Shown one piece after another: positions 2,742 to 44,592 of a stretch of 45,209 nucleotides of DNA (the first letter of the stretch is position 1; every line of letters begins with the position of its first letter). A program made the position numbers and the translations under genes. Origin of the DNA: SAR202 cluster bacterium Casp-Chloro-G4 (GTDB lineage: Bacteria > Chloroflexota > Dehalococcoidia > Lucifugimonadales > JADFKI01); contig MUCK01000052.1 of the NCBI GenBank assembly GCA_002816705.1, forward strand, positions 1 through 45,209, given 5' to 3'. The notes below the pieces were generated by a model. It made no database searches. It worked only from the letters and a program-made list of their open reading frames with translations, and was not told the origin of the DNA.

Positions 2742-3034
2742 CTTCCTCTACATCAGGCGCTCTCCGGAAACCAGCCTGACCTCTTGACCCCGCAACCGCG
2801 ACGATTGGCAATTAGCCCCTTCCGGTATACCATACCGACCGACGTTGAGATGAATCGAATCTGGTATGGCCAAGAAGATTGATACTCCTCACACCGAAAA
2901 TCTCGGCCCGTCCGCTATCCTGCTCGGCGCAACAGCCAAAACAATACCCGGGGTCATTGCGCATTGAAGAATTTTTAGTCCCCACTAAATAGCAAATTCT
3001 CAAAGCAACCGCCTGGAATTAAAAGGAGTAGCCA
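2742..3034 (+). promoter_or_regulatory. Intergenic region with a candidate promoter for the amidohydrolase gene
   Basis: No gene is supported here. TTGAAG at 2964-2969 and TAAATA at 2986-2991 are 16 bases apart and could form a sigma70-type promoter about 45 bases before the ATG at 3035. A 7-bp inverted repeat (ccatacc 2830-2836, ggtatgg 2863-2869) is of unknown meaning. Confidence 0.35.
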
Positions 3035-4003
3035 ATGAGCTCAAAAAAGAAACATAAGGTAATCGCCCTGGAGGAACACTACTGGGACAGGGAGATTGCG
3101 GATACCTTCCCGCCTACCGAGCGGCACGGCCCTCGAATCCTGGACCGACTATTCGACTACAGCGAGTTGCGTCTGGCGGAGATGGACGAGGCCGGGGTAG
3201 ACATGCAGGTGCTCTCTCAAGGTGCGCCGTCGGTGCAGCGTCTGGACTCTGAGACGGCGGTCCGCATCTCCAGGGGCGCCAACGACCGCCTGGCCGCAAT
3301 GGTGGCCGCCCACCCGGACCGGTTCGCCGCCTTCGCTGCCTTGCCAACCGCAGACCCGGCGGCGGCCGCAAACGAGTTGGAACGCTGTGTGACACAGCTT
3401 GGCTTCAAGGGCGCAATGGTCCACGGTCTGACCAACGGGCTTTTCCTGGACGACAAGCAGTTCTGGCCTATATTCGAGCGGGCTCAAGCGTTGGACGTTC
3501 CCCTGTACCTGCACCCGGCCACGCCAGATGAGGCGGTGGTCGAGCGGTACTACAGGGATTACGTGGAAGACTTCCCCAGCATCCTGGCAGCGTCTTGGGG
3601 CTTCACGGTGGAGACGGCGACGCAGGGCATCCGCATGGTGCTGTCCGGCGTGTTCGACAAGTACCCTGGTCTGAAAATCATTCTGGGCCACATGGGCGAG
3701 GGTTTGCCTTTCCTCCTGTGGCGCATCGACTATACGCTGAAGAGACAAGGCAACAAGATCATGCCGCGCACCTACCGGGAGTATTTTTCAGAGCATTTTT
3801 GGATCACTACTAGCGGCAACTTCTCCAACCCTGCACTATTGTGCTCGGTCATGGAGTTGGGCGTGGACCGCATCATGTTCTCCATCGACTACCCCTTCGT
3901 GGACAACAAACCGGGCACCGACTGGATACCGCACATCCCGCTCAGCGAGGAAGACAAGGCCAAAATCCTGCACGGCAACGCGGAGAGGCTGCTGAGGCTG
4001 TAG
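3035..4003 (+). CDS. Amidohydrolase-2 family metal-dependent decarboxylase/hydrolase
   Basis: This 322-residue protein belongs to the amidohydrolase-2 (ACMSD / gamma-resorcylate decarboxylase-like) TIM-barrel family, whose members decarboxylate or hydrolyse aromatic and related acids with one divalent metal. Candidate ligands are in the expected order: E13-x-H15 in ALEEHYW, H160 in YLHPATP, H219 in ILGHMGEGLPF and D285 in FSIDYPF. These match the E8/H10/H164/H218/D287 pattern known for gamma-resorcylate decarboxylase. The start is supported by AAAAGGAG seven bases upstream. The protein is cytoplasmic, with no signal peptide. Its natural substrate cannot be read from the sequence. It stands alone between an anchored secreted protein and a toxin-antitoxin island, so context does not help. 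Confidence 0.85.
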   Translation: MSSKKKHKVIALEEHYWDREIADTFPPTERHGPRILDRLFDYSELRLAEMDEAGVDMQVLSQGAPSVQRLDSETAVRISRGANDRLAAMVAAHPDRFAAFAALPTADPAAAANELERCVTQLGFKGAMVHGLTNGLFLDDKQFWPIFERAQALDVPLYLHPATPDEAVVERYYRDYVEDFPSILAASWGFTVETATQGIRMVLSGVFDKYPGLKIILGHMGEGLPFLLWRIDYTLKRQGNKIMPRTYREYFSEHFWITTSGNFSNPALLCSVMELGVDRIMFSIDYPFVDNKPGTDWIPHIPLSEEDKAKILHGNAERLLRL

Positions 4004-4061
4004 GCTCAACCGAAACCTGGTGAGAAAGGGCAAGCAAAGTAGCCGCAAGGTTCCGGGGGGA

Positions 4062-4490
4062 CTAGAACACCTTGAATGTGCCCTTTTGCGCAAGATAGTA
4101 ACCGTTACCCGTTGTGAAATACGCCAATTCGGCGAATTTGCCAATAATCTCCAAAAGTTGTTGTTCGTTACCCTCCTGCTCCACATAATCAGCCAATTCA
4201 AGAACGGCATCAGTTAAGGCAACGAAATACGCATCGGTCAGTCTTACGATTGGCTCACCTTGTGTAATAGATTGCTGTCGCCCAGCTATCACATTGTGAG
4301 TCTGCTGTGTGGCAAACCATATCAACACAAGCTCCGTATCCCAATGCCAATTCAGTACCCTAGTGGCCTCTCCAAACAGCACCGAAAAATAGTAAAGCTT
4401 TTCGGCAGGAGAATCTGACTCAGTCATGCGAGTGGCAGCTATCCGAAATTCGCCTGCAAGTTTGTCGTGTAATTCTTTAGGCAGCTTCAT
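4062..4490 (-). CDS. Unknown 142-residue helical protein, third gene of a toxin-antitoxin-like operon
   Basis: I do not recognise this protein. It is predicted to be mostly helical, soluble and acidic, with aromatic patches such as RVLNWHWDTELVLIWFAT and a C-terminal FTTGNGYYLAQKGTFKVF. The start at 4490 is chosen because AAAAGGGGG lies about seven bases upstream; a longer reading upstream exists only inside the preceding gene. It overlaps the end of the XRE-type gene by 14 bases, and that gene overlaps the toxin gene by the same amount, so all three are probably translated together. A role as a third component of the toxin-antitoxin module (chaperone, co-antitoxin or inhibitor) is inference. 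Base composition is AT-rich compared with the flanks. Confidence 0.6.
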   Translation of the reverse strand: MKLPKELHDKLAGEFRIAATRMTESDSPAEKLYYFSVLFGEATRVLNWHWDTELVLIWFATQQTHNVIAGRQQSITQGEPIVRLTDAYFVALTDAVLELADYVEQEGNEQQLLEIIGKFAELAYFTTGNGYYLAQKGTFKVF

Positions 4491-5040
4491 AAACAAACCC
4501 CCTTTTCCGAGGTGCTCTAATTTGCTGAGGTGTTTCAACATCAGTAGTTGCGAAGTTACTGACGGCCAATGCATCCGCACTATATGCAGACAAATTCGAA
4601 TCTCTTATTAGGTCATCATCTACTATGAATGTGTCGCTTTCCCACCAGTTATCTGTTGTCTCGTGAACCCCGGCGAAGGTCATTTGCCGTTCTTCGTCAT
4701 AGCTTGGTGGCGCAATTATTTCAGGCGTCAGATTGGCGGCATTTCTGATTAAATCTCTGAAAGAGACGAAATTCACCTGCAAAGCCACATCAAAAGCGGA
4801 TGCAAGGATTTTAAGGGTTTTCAGGGTGTAACTTCCATAATCAGGATTTTCCAATTGAGAAATTACTTCCTGCCTCTTGCCAGCACGCCTAGCAAATTCT
4901 TCCTGCGTCCAGCCGAATTTCTCCCTCATTGCTCGAATCTGATAAGCCAAACCAACACCAATATGTTCTTGTACAAAAGTATCTCTGTAATCTTTGTCCT
5001 GAAAACTCTCAAATAATTGTTTCTCTTTAAGAGTAGTCAT
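4477..5040 (-). CDS. HigA-like XRE antitoxin / repressor with long C-terminal extension
   Basis: A helix-turn-helix of the XRE class occupies about residues 30-95: AMREKFGWTQEEFARRAGKR, then a recognition helix, then LKTLKILASAFDVALQVNF. This arrangement is typical of antitoxins that partner RelE/HigB-type toxins and repress their own operon. Ordinary proteins of this class end soon after the beta-like VNFVSF segment. This one continues for about 90 residues, with PEIIAPPSYDEERQM, an acidic/aromatic stretch and a basic end (PRKRGFVYEAA). The extension may bind the toxin or the product of the overlapping third gene. The start overlaps the toxin gene by 14 bases. The family call is confident; the extension's role is inference. 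Confidence 0.8.
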   Translation of the reverse strand: MTTLKEKQLFESFQDKDYRDTFVQEHIGVGLAYQIRAMREKFGWTQEEFARRAGKRQEVISQLENPDYGSYTLKTLKILASAFDVALQVNFVSFRDLIRNAANLTPEIIAPPSYDEERQMTFAGVHETTDNWWESDTFIVDDDLIRDSNLSAYSADALAVSNFATTDVETPQQIRAPRKRGFVYEAA

Positions 5041-38711: not shown

Positions 38712-39857
38712 ATGACCCCATCCAAACAATCCGAAAGGCACGACTTTACGGCGCACCTAACTCGTTTTTCCCGGGTGCTGCGTGGGCATGGGTTTCTGAT
38801 TGGCCCGCTGGAAACGGCGGACGTCATCAAAGCGATGAGCGCCGTGGATATGATGGACCGAGGTCGTGTTTACTGGGCACTGCGTAGCCTACTTGTCTCA
38901 CGACAGGACGAGTTCCTCACATACGACATGCTCTTCGAAAAATTTTGGAACTTCGAGCCCATGCCGACTCGAGGTCCCTCCAGCGAAGGCTCCAAGAAGC
39001 TTGAAGAGTCGATGACCCTTCAGCGCAGACCAAGATCGCTGTTCGGGGTGAGCAACGACCAGCAGTCCGAAGATATAGCCATCCAGGAAATGCGGGTCGG
39101 AGCCAGCGACGTGGAGCTAAACGCCAAGAAAGACTTTACCGTGATCCGCGCAGATGAGTTCTCGGAGCTTTCCCGCATCGCCGCGCGAATGGTGAAGGCC
39201 CTGGCCTCCCGCCCCGGACGCCGACGCAAGCGTCACAAGCGCAAAGGCACCCCCGACCTGCGTGGCGCAATGCGACTGAACCTCTCCTCCGGTGGCGACC
39301 CTATCATCGTGCCCCGACGCAAGCGCGTACCCAGAGTCCCACGCCTGCTGGTGCTGCTGGACGTTAGCGGGTCCATGGAGCGGCACGTCCAGCTACTTCT
39401 GCAGTTGGCCTACGCAGTTTCCCAGCAGACCAGGCGTGTGGAGGCCTTCGTATTCAGCACAAAGGTTACGCGGGTAACACGAGAGCTTGCCATGCCATCA
39501 TTTACCGATGCCCTGAAGCGCATTGGCGATGAGGCATCCCACTGGTCTGGCGGCACGCGCATTGGCGAGGCTCTGTCCACCGTGAACACAGACTTCGACT
39601 ATCTGCTGGACAAGCACACAACCGTGTTCCTACTCAGCGACGGTTGGGACACCGGGGACCCCGACCAACTAGCATCCCAAATTCGGCGCATGCAGCGGCG
39701 CGTACGAAGCTTCGTGTGGCTAAACCCGCTAATGGGAACCCAGGACTACCAGCCTCTGACCCGAAGCCTGCAATCGGCCGAGCCATACGTGGACCACTTC
39801 GCCTCGGCCATGGACGTAGCGCATCTGCGGCGGCTACCCCAGTTACTACGCTCTTGA
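38712..39857 (+). CDS. CoxE-like von Willebrand factor A domain protein
   Basis: This 381-residue protein has an N-terminal helical region (TAHLTRFSRVLRGHGFLIGP, MDRGRVYWALRSLLVSRQDE) typical of CoxE-type VWA proteins. A basic segment (about 155-175, RRRKRHKRKG) follows, then a VWA domain. The metal-ion-dependent adhesion site is complete: DVSGS at D217/S219/S221, a Thr in SGGTRIGEAL and FLLSDGWDTGD. CoxE works with an MoxR-type AAA ATPase (CoxD) to insert the copper-molybdenum centre of CO dehydrogenase, and relatives act as general metal or cofactor chelatase partners. No AAA gene or dehydrogenase is in the window. A terminator precedes the gene, so it has its own promoter. Confidence 0.88.
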   Translation: MTPSKQSERHDFTAHLTRFSRVLRGHGFLIGPLETADVIKAMSAVDMMDRGRVYWALRSLLVSRQDEFLTYDMLFEKFWNFEPMPTRGPSSEGSKKLEESMTLQRRPRSLFGVSNDQQSEDIAIQEMRVGASDVELNAKKDFTVIRADEFSELSRIAARMVKALASRPGRRRKRHKRKGTPDLRGAMRLNLSSGGDPIIVPRRKRVPRVPRLLVLLDVSGSMERHVQLLLQLAYAVSQQTRRVEAFVFSTKVTRVTRELAMPSFTDALKRIGDEASHWSGGTRIGEALSTVNTDFDYLLDKHTTVFLLSDGWDTGDPDQLASQIRRMQRRVRSFVWLNPLMGTQDYQPLTRSLQSAEPYVDHFASAMDVAHLRRLPQLLRS

Positions 39858-40114: not shown

Positions 40115-40777
40115 ATGATGAACGCCGTCAACATAAGGCCTTTGCGATTGCCCAGGGTGGTGTGGCCCCCAGAGGCAATAAACGCAGACCTTCACGTTGA
40201 CGATTTCGTCCTTAGCCCCCAGGGACTAAAGACCTCATCGATGAGCCTTGGCATGATCCTTCCCTTGGCTGCGGCGCTTGCCTTTTCTGTGCTGATCGTA
40301 TTCCTCATGGTCGAGTTCCGCCACGTCATCGCGGACCTTGGACGTTGGGGTTACCTGGGCGTATTTTTCATCGAGCTAGCCAACAGCGCGACTATCTTGT
40401 TCCCGACGGCTGGACAGTCGTATACCTTTGCGCTGGGAGTAACCCTCAACCCTCTTATGATCGGTCTGATCGGCGGCATAGGTTCCGCTATTGGCGAGTT
40501 GACCGGCTACGCAGTGGGCGCAAAGACGGGCCAGCGATTCAAGGGCGGGCGCATCTTTAACAAGCTCCAGAGATTCACAATGCGTTGGGGAGGCTTTTCG
40601 CTATTCTTGTTCGCTACGATACCCGGACCTTTTGAAGTGGCAGGTCTGTGGGCCGGCACTGTCCGGTATCCATTAGCACGCTTCTTCGTGTTCGTCGCTA
40701 TCGGCAAGATACTAAAGGTTACCGCCTTCGCTCTGGCAGGTTACTACAGCCTCACCTGGCTGCTAGGCGGAAGCTAA
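40115..40777 (+). CDS. DedA/VTT-domain membrane protein
   Basis: This 220-residue membrane protein has a polar first 40 residues, a membrane segment (MILPLAAALAFSVLIVFLM) and then the VTT/SNARE-associated domain. Landmarks are GRWGYLGVFFIELANSATI, PTAGQSYTFALG, GLIGGIGSAIGELTGYAVG and FLFATIPGPFEVAGLWAG. The Glu and Gly-rich helices resemble DedA proteins, which flip lipids or couple to the proton gradient. Three or more further helices follow. The ATG pair at 40115/40118 is preceded by GGAAAAGGA. The unusually polar N-terminus could mean a later real start, for example at the MSLGM near residue 43. The next gene is a proton antiporter, so both concern membrane energetics. Confidence 0.85.
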   Translation: MMNAVNIRPLRLPRVVWPPEAINADLHVDDFVLSPQGLKTSSMSLGMILPLAAALAFSVLIVFLMVEFRHVIADLGRWGYLGVFFIELANSATILFPTAGQSYTFALGVTLNPLMIGLIGGIGSAIGELTGYAVGAKTGQRFKGGRIFNKLQRFTMRWGGFSLFLFATIPGPFEVAGLWAGTVRYPLARFFVFVAIGKILKVTAFALAGYYSLTWLLGGS

Positions 40778-40912: not shown

Positions 40913-42511
40913 ATACCAGAAATCGTTGTCGCCTTCGGCCTCATCGCCACCGTACTAATCATCAAAGCCTTGGCCTCGGGGCTGGTAGAACGCTCCATAC
41001 TTTCGTTCCCCTTCCTATTCATAGCGTTAGGCTTTGTACTTGGAGAGCGAGGCGTCGGCCTGCTGAATCTGGGACCGCACAGCGCCATCCTCGAGATCGT
41101 TGCCACACTAACGCTGGCCCTGGTGTTATTCCTAGACGCCGTAAAACTGCAGGTCAAGGAACTGGGCAAACGTTGGCTCATTCCTTTTCTGATTCTGGTG
41201 CCAGGCACAGCGCTCATCATAATACTGGGGGCTCTGCCTCTGGCCTTGATTTTGGGTTTTGGCTGGGTCATGGCTTTCATAGGCGGCGCGCTTCTTGCCT
41301 CCACGGATCCTGTCGTATTACGCGATATCCTCCGCGACAACCGTATACCGAGGCCTGTGCGGCAAATCCTCAAGTTAGAAGGCGGCACGAACGACCTGGT
41401 GGTCTTGCCCGTCGTGCTGATTCTTATAGCGATAACCACCGCGCAAGCAGGAGGCCCGGAACAGTGGGCGCCATTTCTGATCCAACTGCTGATTCTAGGC
41501 CCGCTGATGGGAGCAGTCGTAGGCGTCGTAGGCGCATGGTGCATGTCCCGGGTGGACGAGAAGATGGGCATTCGGCTGGAGCATCAGGCGCTGTTTGGGA
41601 TTGGCCTCGTGCTGGCTGCGTACGCGTCGGCAACCATAGTTGGCGGTGATGGCTTCCTGGGAGCATTCTTCGCGGGCATAGCCGTCGTAATGCTTAACCA
41701 GAAGCTTTGCACCTGCTTCCTGGACTACGGCGAGGTCACATCCGAAATGATGATGATGTTGGCCTTCGTCCTGTTCGGCGCTGTCCTGTCTGGCATCATC
41801 GACACAGTCCCGCTGGTACCGGCCCTAATCCTGGCTGCACTGGTAATCTTCGTGATTCGACCGTCCGTCATTAACCTTGTTCTGGTCAAGGCTAATATAA
41901 GCTGGGAGGCACGCGCCTTCATTAGCTGGTTCGGCCCAAGAGGGCTAAATTCGCTGCTGCTTGCTTTGCTCGTGGTCCAGGCGGCGGTGCCCGGCGCTGA
42001 ACTGCTGCTGGCAACCGTTGGCATCGTGGCTCTGGCATCAGTGGTGATACACGGAGCATCCGCTTCACCTATAACGGCATGGTACGGCCGTAAAGCGTCA
42101 GAGGAAACGCTGGCGGAGGAGCGCCAGAGCACGGTCGTGGGACTGTTCAGACCGGAAGAGCCAGAGCTGATCCGCATTACGCCGGACGAGCTTAACGAGA
42201 TGATTTCCGGCGAGGACTCTCCTGTGATATTGGACGTGCGCTCTAGATCGACCTTCGAGCACGATGACGCAGAGATTCCTAGAAGCGTGCGAGTCCTGCC
42301 TGATCAAGTCCTCGAATGGGCCAGCGATGAGTCGAATCGGGGCCTCGCTGACAGGCTGGTGGTCGCGTACTGCACTTGACCGGATGAGGCGACTAGCGCC
42401 CGTGTGGCGCGACATCTCATTTCCGAAGGAATAAAGGCGGTCGCACTGGAGGGTGGATTCAACGCTTGGCGGGCCAAGTACCCGGTGAGCCCATTGACTG
42501 CAGTGGCCTAG
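40913..42511 (+). CDS. Cation/proton antiporter with C-terminal rhodanese domain; in-frame TGA at 42377 read as selenocysteine
   Basis: The N-terminal 370 residues are a CPA1-type Na+/H+ or K+/H+ antiporter with about a dozen membrane segments: GFVLGERGVGLLN, LLASTDPVVLRDIL, GGTNDLVVLPVVLI and FISWFGPRGLNSLLLALLVV. After about residue 410 comes a rhodanese domain (ITPDELNEMI, VILDVRSRSTFEHDDAEIP, LADRLVVAYCT). TGA at 42377 follows, but the frame continues PDEATSARVARHLISEG, IKAVALEGGFNAWRAKYP and ends at TAG 42509-42511, which is the rest of a rhodanese. The TGA stands where relatives have the second Cys of a C-x-C-P motif. With readthrough the protein has 532 residues, Sec489. The first ordinary start is TTG 40970, but the membrane helix extends upstream; ATA at 40913 follows AAGGA. 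Confidence 0.82.
42377..42421 (+). promoter_or_regulatory. SECIS-like hairpin downstream of the in-frame TGA
   Basis: Directly after the TGA the sequence folds into a lower stem (42383-42388 with 42416-42421, six pairs including one G-U). The upper stem is 5 bp, gcgcc (42396-42400) with ggcgc (42406-42410). The apical loop is cgtgt (42401-42405) with G second. The apical loop begins 21 bases after the TGA. A short stem, a G among the first two loop bases and a spacing of 16-37 bases are the accepted bacterial SECIS criteria. SelB would bind it to deliver Sec-tRNA. Function is inferred from structure and context. Confidence 0.65.
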
Positions 42512-42618: not shown

Positions 42619-44592
42619 CTGCCTGAATTCGAGATAGTCTCAGACTTTGTTCCCACTGGAGACCAGCCCGAAGCCATCAACAGGACAGTCGAGGGCATCA
42701 ACAAGGGAATGACACATCAGACGTTGTTGGGTGTAACCGGCAGCGGCAAGACGTTTACCATGGCCTGCATCGTTGAAAAGGTGCAGCGTCCGACTCTTGT
42801 CCTAGTCCACAACAAGACGCTGGCAGCCCAACTAGCCACGGAGTTCAAGGAGTTCTTCCCGAACAACGCCGTTGAGTACTTCGTCAGCTACTACGACTAC
42901 TACCAGCCAGAGGCGTACGTTCCTCGCAGCGATACCTATATCGAGAAGGACGCCGACGTTAACGAGGAGTTGGACAAGCTCCGCCACGCCGCAACACGCG
43001 GTCTTCTTACTCGACGCGACGTGCTTATAGTGGCCTCTGTCTCCTGCATCTTCGGCCTGGGATCGCCAGAGGAGTACCAGAGCTTCGTCGCCTACATACG
43101 CAAAGGTGAGCAGCGCAACCGCGGCCGCCTGATGCGCCAACTTGTAGACATGCAGTACGAGAGAAATGACATGGACTTCTCCAGGGGCAAGTTCCGCATA
43201 CGCGGCGACACCATGGAGATCCTGCCCGCGTACGACGAAGTAGGCGTACGCATCGAGTTCTGGGGCGACCAGGTAGACCGCATCATGATGGTGGACCCCC
43301 TCACCGGAGAGGTGTTGGGCGAACGAGATGATATAGAGATATACCCTGCTAAGCACTTCGTGACCTCCCAGGAGAAGATGGACCTGGCGATGGTGGACAT
43401 CGAGGAGGAGCTGCAGGAGCGTGTAGCGCTGTTTAAGGAACAGGGCAAGCCGCTTGAGGCTGAACGGATCGAATCCCGCACTCGCTACGACATAGAGATG
43501 ATGCGTGAAACAGGCTACTGCGGAGGAGTCGAGAACTACTCTCGCCACCTGGCACGACGCGAGGCGGGTAGCTCACCGTACACCCTGCTCGACTACTTCC
43601 CTGAAGACTACCTGCTGTTCGTCGATGAGTCCCACATGACACTGCCCCAGGTACGTGGGATGTTCTTTGGAGACAAATCTCGGAAAGAAACCCTGGTGGA
43701 CTTCGGATTCCGTCTCCCTTCAGCGCTGGACAACCGGCCGCTTAATTTCAGCGAGTTCGAGGAGCGAGTCAATCAGGCCGTATACGTCTCTGCGACGCCC
43801 GGCCCATACGAGTATGAGCACTCACAGGCAATCATCCCGCAGGTTATTCGGCCAACTGGGCTGATCGATCCCCTGATAGAGGTGAAGCCCACCAAAGGCC
43901 AGATCGACGACCTGCTATACCAGATAAGAATGCGCGTGGAAAAGGGCCAACGATGCCTGGTAACTACGCTGACGAAGCGTATGTCCGAAGAGTTGGCGGA
44001 TTTCTTACGCGAGATGGGCGTCAAGGTCCACTACCTGCACTCGGAAATCGACACACTGGAACGCAGCGAGATCCTCCGAGACCTGCGTCTGGGCGTATAC
44101 GATGTCGTGGTTGGCATCAACCTGCTCCGGGAAGGCTTGGACCTGCCGGAAGTTAGCCTCGTCGCCATACTTGACGCAGATAAAGAGGGCTACCTCAGGT
44201 CGCAGACTGCTCTGACGCAGACGGTAGGACGCGCAGCGCGACACGTCGAAGGCCACGTCATCATGTACGCAGACGTTGTCACCGGCTCGATGAAGCGCAC
44301 TATCGACGAGACTGATCGGCGACGGACCATACAGGAGGCCCATAACCTCGAACACGGCATAACGCCGCAGGGCATTCAAAAAACAATCCACGACATAACC
44401 GAGCGTGTAAAGGCCATTGCTGAAACAAGGACGCCATACATCACTCAGAGAGATCTGCCAAAGGACGATATCCTGCGGCTAATCAAGGACCTGGAATCCC
44501 AGATGAAGACGGCCGCCAGGAACCTGGAGTTCGAAAAAGCCTCACTGTTGAGGGACCAGATAATAGACCTTCGCAAGGTAGTCGTCGACTGA
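42619..44592 (+). CDS. uvrB: Excinuclease ABC subunit B, probable CTG start
   Basis: This helicase-like subunit of nucleotide excision repair loads onto damaged DNA after UvrA. Signatures are Walker [11 protein letters not shown] (about 36-45), the beta-hairpin [19 protein letters not shown] that inserts between strands, the DESHM motif in [16 protein letters not shown], the helicase motif [14 protein letters not shown] and QTVGRAARH, and a C-terminal UVR domain ([20 protein letters not shown]) that binds UvrC. The first ordinary start is ATG 42709, which would lose 30 conserved residues including the [12 protein letters not shown]-like motif. CTG at 42619 gives [10 protein letters not shown], where other UvrB begin MPEFEI or similar, and GGAGG lies eight bases before it. 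The length from CTG, 657 residues, is normal. Confidence 0.95.

Follow-up and report, generated by a model that had tools for sequence, protein, structure and literature searches.

The closest described relative of the protein analyzed here is the family NF041203 (rhodanese_LYCAU), a CxU rhodanese selenoprotein listed as 'form 3' in the 2026 review of prokaryotic selenoproteins (PMC13188914). The same review includes several Sec-containing membrane transport proteins, namely SO_0444-type Cu/Zn efflux, YeeE/YedE and MerT-like proteins and a P-type ATPase (PMC13188914). These resemble the present protein in being transporters that contain Sec but, unlike it, are neither cation/proton antiporters nor carry Sec in an appended rhodanese domain, and a cation/proton antiporter is absent from the table of the review. 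Within the open-access literature, we found no paper on a cation/proton antiporter selenoprotein and none naming both SAR202 and selenoproteins; earlier marine metagenome sets may hold unannotated fragments, e.g., among COG0607 sulfurtransferases (PMC2398784). The original prediction did not know the antiporter-attached center as a described selenoprotein; as a refinement, the CxU rhodanese center belongs to a family already listed, so that the new element is the fusion.

The window, that is, the whole stretch of 45,209 nucleotides from SAR202 cluster bacterium Casp-Chloro-G4, contains a reading frame (40913-42511) interrupted by one TGA codon, with the following features:

40913..42511, + strand, whole gene for the cation/proton antiporter-rhodanese, a predicted selenoprotein of 532 residues counting Sec
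40958..42082, + strand, Na_H_Exchanger domain (PF00999), CPA1-type, from a profile match and an AlphaFold model resembling PaNhaP and MjNhaP1
41390..41395, + strand, N160-D161, invariant in a 45-sequence alignment
41708..41716, + strand, C266-x-C268, located where helix 267-298 begins, the putative cytoplasmic end of TM10
42179..42475, + strand, rhodanese domain (PF00581), best rhodanese model NF041203 rhodanese_LYCAU
42371..42373, + strand, C487, the Cys two residues N-terminal of Sec, conserved in 73 of the 74 homologues
42377..42379, + strand, putative Sec codon TGA (U489), from the frame and the homologue comparison
42396..42410, + strand, predicted bacterial SECIS hairpin GCGCC-CGUGU-GGCGC with a G in its apical loop, separated from the TGA by 16 nt
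42509..42511, + strand, true stop codon TAG, from the sequence

The arrangement around the TGA that had been proposed is exact in every coordinate: the codons TAC TGC ACT (Y-C-T) precede it, and exactly 43 sense codons (42380-42508), including PDEATSARVARHL and ALEGGFNAW, separate it from the TAG. When the TGA is translated as a residue, the product scores 127.8 bits against PF00999 and 37.9 bits against PF00581 (cut-off of the latter, 22.2), with the C-T-U motif inside the rhodanese domain. The apparent start codon is ATA (40913-40915), located after AAGGAAACC, and there is no ATG, GTG or TTG between the upstream stop and this position; the sister genome has ATG and other relatives have ATG or GTG, so that ATA is either a rare start codon or a sequence error. 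The gene immediately upstream (40115-40777) codes for a membrane protein with a VTT domain (DedA-like). Fusions of DedA to rhodanese occur elsewhere, as in a Burkholderia plasmid hit (H6), the product of which is annotated 'DedA family protein/thiosulfate sulfurtransferase GlpE'. Conservation of the gene neighborhood ends at the closest relative, so the neighborhoods give no functional lead.

The antiporter part is of the CPA1 type, judging from the PF00999 score above the cut-off, the predicted fold and invariant ion-site residues. The AlphaFold model (mean pLDDT 85.9, pTM 0.82) is best matched among solved structures by PaNhaP (4cz8) and MjNhaP1 (4czb), with TM-scores to the target of 0.73-0.76. 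The 45-sequence alignment shows no variation at N160-D161, which we take to be the ND pair of the CPA1 ion site, nor at S130 and D132 (of the STDP stretch) or R343. The protein thus shares fold and ion-site residues with NhaP/NhaP2-type CPA1 antiporters but differs from them in its rhodanese C-terminus and in the CxC at 266/268, and it scores below the cut-offs of all PRK05326 (NhaP2 K+/H+ antiporter) models (146.3 vs 355, 120.8 vs 309 and 64.4 vs 471). For the rhodanese tail, the best model, NF041203 of NCBIfam, gives 75.9 bits, below its curated cut-off of 115, which no Chloroflexota match in 400 genomes reached. The tail and rhodanese_LYCAU have in common a single rhodanese domain, a CxU motif with an in-frame UGA and the existence of Cys homologues, and differ in the motif itself (YCTU vs LYCAU) and in the fusion, here, to a 13-helix antiporter. 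A CxU rhodanese fused to a CPA1-type antiporter is, on the comparative evidence, what this frame encodes.

Homologues were collected from 60 relatives, then by an order-level search (38 of 250 genomes) and then from named genomes (78 loci). Already among the 60 relatives, several homologues had the identical single TGA and two had Cys. The site is covered by 74 distinct sequences, of which 58 have TGA, 13 TGC, two TGT and one TGG, corresponding to a Sec codon in 58/74, Cys in 15/74 and Trp in 1/74. The sequence continues beyond the site and is not truncated there, and several of the Cys forms read CTCP, the C-x-C-P that had been expected of relatives. The sources are mostly Chloroflexota records (SAR202/Dehalococcoidia, Anaerolineae, Caldilineaceae, Ktedonobacteria, Thermomicrobiales), along with Rubrobacteraceae and other actinobacterial records. 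On a maximum-likelihood tree built with the site masked, at least five changes between Sec and non-Sec are needed, four of them forced by the starred branches, and the Sec/Cys changes are clustered. Selenoproteins typically show such recurrent swapping of Sec and Cys at a single residue. One TGA homologue (L055, around 4440) has Tyr in place of the first Cys of CxU (YYAU), which suggests that the essential residue may be Sec rather than that Cys. The sole Trp homologue, L069 (rhodanese part of the gene at 3001-4587; the same gene as L148), comes from a genome that retains SelA.

CxU rhodaneses with the TGA and the hairpin are found also outside this architecture: stand-alone in Chloroflexota (e.g., L150, L158, L165), in lipoprotein-like and apparently cytosolic forms, and attached through longer linkers to other members of the antiporter family (L153, L154, L157, L162, L167). 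Two lipoprotein-like frames stand apart. L180 (G374:C111:1-2500) combines a thioredoxin-like and a rhodanese domain and may represent a further form of selenoprotein, with an in-frame TGA (YCIGKTUGES) offset by three residues from the CxU position; L181 (G304:C454) is a tandem double rhodanese with CTU and an in-frame TGA in the second domain.

Bacterial SECIS elements are hairpins located just 3' of the UGA, and their apical loop is small and contains a G (PMC1088965). The element at 42396-42410 has all of these features: the arms GCGCC (42396-42400) and GGCGC (42406-42410) enclose the loop CGTGT (42401-42405) with G at its second position, and the 21 bases between TGA and loop agree with the spacing in the original prediction. 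All five pairs form in 54 of 57 TGA copies vs 4 of 16 Cys/Trp copies (Fisher p = 4e-8, uncorrected for relatedness), and each of the 57 TGA copies has G second in a loop that reads CGTGT, CGTGC, CGGGC or CGGGT. Paired cells amount to 98.9% in the true register vs 20-62% in slid registers, and compensatory changes are seen in L083 (GTGCC/GGCAC) and L167 (GCACC/GGTGC) and also in the stand-alone L161. The gene has 242 positions at which a residue with four- or six-fold codon degeneracy is conserved, and among these, codons +6, +7, +8 and +10 after the TGA occupy ranks 1-4 for uniformity (AGC 98%, GCC 98%, CGT 88% and GCG 96%; mean of the 242 columns, 49%), and at +9 every Val is encoded by GTG; the Cys copies show no comparable uniformity at these positions. 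The Trp copy reads AGCATCCACGCGGCC and has lost the standard hairpin element along with the TGA. Folding energy of the single sequence does not reach significance (z of -1.4 over 49 nt and -0.9 over 40 nt), and longer stretches folded without constraint sometimes have a minimum free energy structure other than this hairpin. Under a synonymous-recoding null, the mean z of the hairpin energy is -1.7 for Sec and -0.7 for non-Sec copies, a test that is only moderately informative because a large part of the hairpin is already given by the amino acids (SARAA, SARVA). An Rfam search for the element produced one chance match (E 0.53). Thus, it is conservation among relatives, not folding energy in the window, that places the hairpin above chance.

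The genome from which the window derives (1.36 Mb, 53 contigs, 67% complete) is of SAR202-type Chloroflexota, to judge from its closest named relatives, which are Chloroflexi and SAR202 metagenome-assembled genomes (MAGs). It was searched family by family for the Sec machinery, and in spite of its incompleteness all the components on which the prediction depended are present: tRNA-Sec (C21:48580-48673, 63.4 bits; identified by ARAGORN as tRNA-SeC with anticodon tca), SelA (C21:29614-30948, 554 bits), SelB (C29:10574-12427, 334 bits, with neighbors in frame) and SelD (C21:6723-7646, 385 bits). The SelD gene has its own in-frame TGA, in the active-site stretch ELASCAGUASK, and is a second selenoprotein of this genome. 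Across genomes, the presence of SelA/SelB separates Sec from Cys carriers weakly (24/28 vs 7/13, Fisher p = 0.05; 24/28 vs 10/16, p = 0.13, when SAR202 Cys and Trp copies are added). Neither SelA nor SelB was found in four MAGs with the TGA form (G255, G259, G266, G276), which may be incomplete.

These data bear on several simpler accounts of the interrupted frame. The TGA could be a true stop, leaving a truncated antiporter followed by a decaying rhodanese remnant, and TGA does end genes elsewhere in the window (the VWA/CoxE-like gene at 39855-39857 and UvrB at 44590-44592). Decay is, however, at odds with the conservation of the 43 codons past the TGA in 57 further homologues, with Cys at this codon in others and with a conservation of post-TGA synonymous sites that is unmatched elsewhere in the gene, so that we regard a true stop as very improbable. 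A sequencing error or chance event, the codon really being TGC, TGT or TGG, might be suspected given that these are MAG data and that the start codon also looks altered. Yet assemblies made independently of one another have TGA at this position, one of them the complete chromosome of Ca. Lucifugimonas marina JH1073 (L083), and the presence of TGA in the 57 further distinct homologues indicates that the codon at 42377 is not a read error; the chance of this account being correct is negligible. Equally negligible is that of a genome-wide reassignment of TGA to Trp or Gly without involvement of selenium. The TGG in L069 could be taken to favor it, but the termination of the neighboring genes by TGA shows that this codon is not reassigned, Trp is encoded by TGG nine times in the gene itself, each gene contains a single TGA, at a position equivalent to Cys and tied to the hairpin, and tRNA-Sec, SelA, SelB and SelD are all present. 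Pseudogene, sequencing error and code change were accordingly rejected on the evidence of homologues, hairpin and Sec machinery. The same codon and RNA signal being kept in more than 50 relatives implies a real selenoprotein, as the original prediction had it for the antiporter-rhodanese fusion, and we conclude that UGA 42377 is almost certainly decoded as Sec.

What the selenium does is a separate matter, for which the CxC of the antiporter provides a lead. With the 13 helices counted back from an assumed cytoplasmic C-terminus, C266-x-C268 lies at the cytoplasmic end of TM10; it would be on the same side of the membrane as the rhodanese if the C-terminus is indeed cytoplasmic, which is generally the case in CPA1 proteins. 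Of the 70 fused copies that have residues at both columns, 68 carry the two cysteines; among about 40 homologues that lack a rhodanese domain, NhaP2-type and more distant ones, a single one does so (L221, the frame of which ends at a contig end). The exceptions among the fused copies are L046, a Cys form with CxS, and L069, in which both cysteines are lost (V, S) together with Sec. This simultaneous loss is the best hint that the two centers may cooperate, yet it is one event, and because the CxC and the fusion share ancestry, their association is itself in part a single event. The antiporters L176 and L177 (Phaeobacter and Aeromonas plasmids), which are distant and not fused, are encoded beside genes for MsrA and a carboxymuconolactone-decarboxylase-family protein, as in an oxidative-stress operon, a weak hint of an oxidative-stress association of this antiporter class.

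On the comparative evidence, SelB with Sec-tRNA-Sec, guided by the hairpin at 42396-42410, almost certainly reads UGA 42377 as selenocysteine, yielding a CPA1-type antiporter with a C-terminal, presumably cytoplasmic rhodanese and the active-site loop Y-C-T-U. In the mechanism that we propose, exposure to oxidants or reactive sulfur would lead C-x-U to make or break a selenenylsulfide, or to accept a persulfide; C-x-U would then exchange with the CxC where helix 10 meets the cytoplasm, and cation/proton exchange would be turned on or off. KefB and KefC are glutathione-gated K+/H+ antiporters of the CPA2 type in which KTN/RCK domains respond to glutathione adducts. Their logic, control of K+/H+ exchange by a cytoplasmic domain that senses thiols or electrophiles, resembles the one proposed here, but Kef proteins contain neither selenium nor rhodanese and the regulators are not homologous, so that the likeness is functional only. 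The cytoplasmic location of both centers, the thiol-selenol exchange between them and the control of transport are all inferred. That CxU and CxC are functionally coupled seems somewhat more probable than their independence; that the coupling serves gating specifically is a tentative proposal. If Sec is real, the rhodanese might alternatively be an enzyme tethered to the antiporter without gating transport, for instance a selenium-assisted sulfurtransferase or a persulfide or oxyanion reductase, with the antiporter providing local pH or ion homeostasis. This is a serious possibility, although short of an even chance. It is favored by the stand-alone CxU rhodaneses with an identical TGA and hairpin, the existence of which implies that the domain is able to work without an antiporter; against it stands the antiporter CxC, the limitation of which to the fused clade and the loss of which with Sec in L069 suggest communication between the domains.

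In summary, the locus very probably encodes a membrane selenoprotein that consists of a CPA1 antiporter with a Sec-containing rhodanese tail and harbors a putative CxU-CxC redox switch. Standard annotation would stop such genes at the TGA, and the catalytic half of the rhodanese tail would be lost. New here, besides the fusion, is the CxC that is predicted to lie where helix 10 of the antiporter meets the cytoplasm and that is kept in the fused family, and the paired CxC and CxU motifs offer a testable hypothesis for a role of selenium in the control of ion transport. A selenol-thiol relay between CxU and CxC may, as a still more tentative possibility, gate the antiporter, in which case selenium-based sensing of redox state or reactive sulfur would control ion and pH homeostasis in SAR202, other Chloroflexota and Rubrobacterales.
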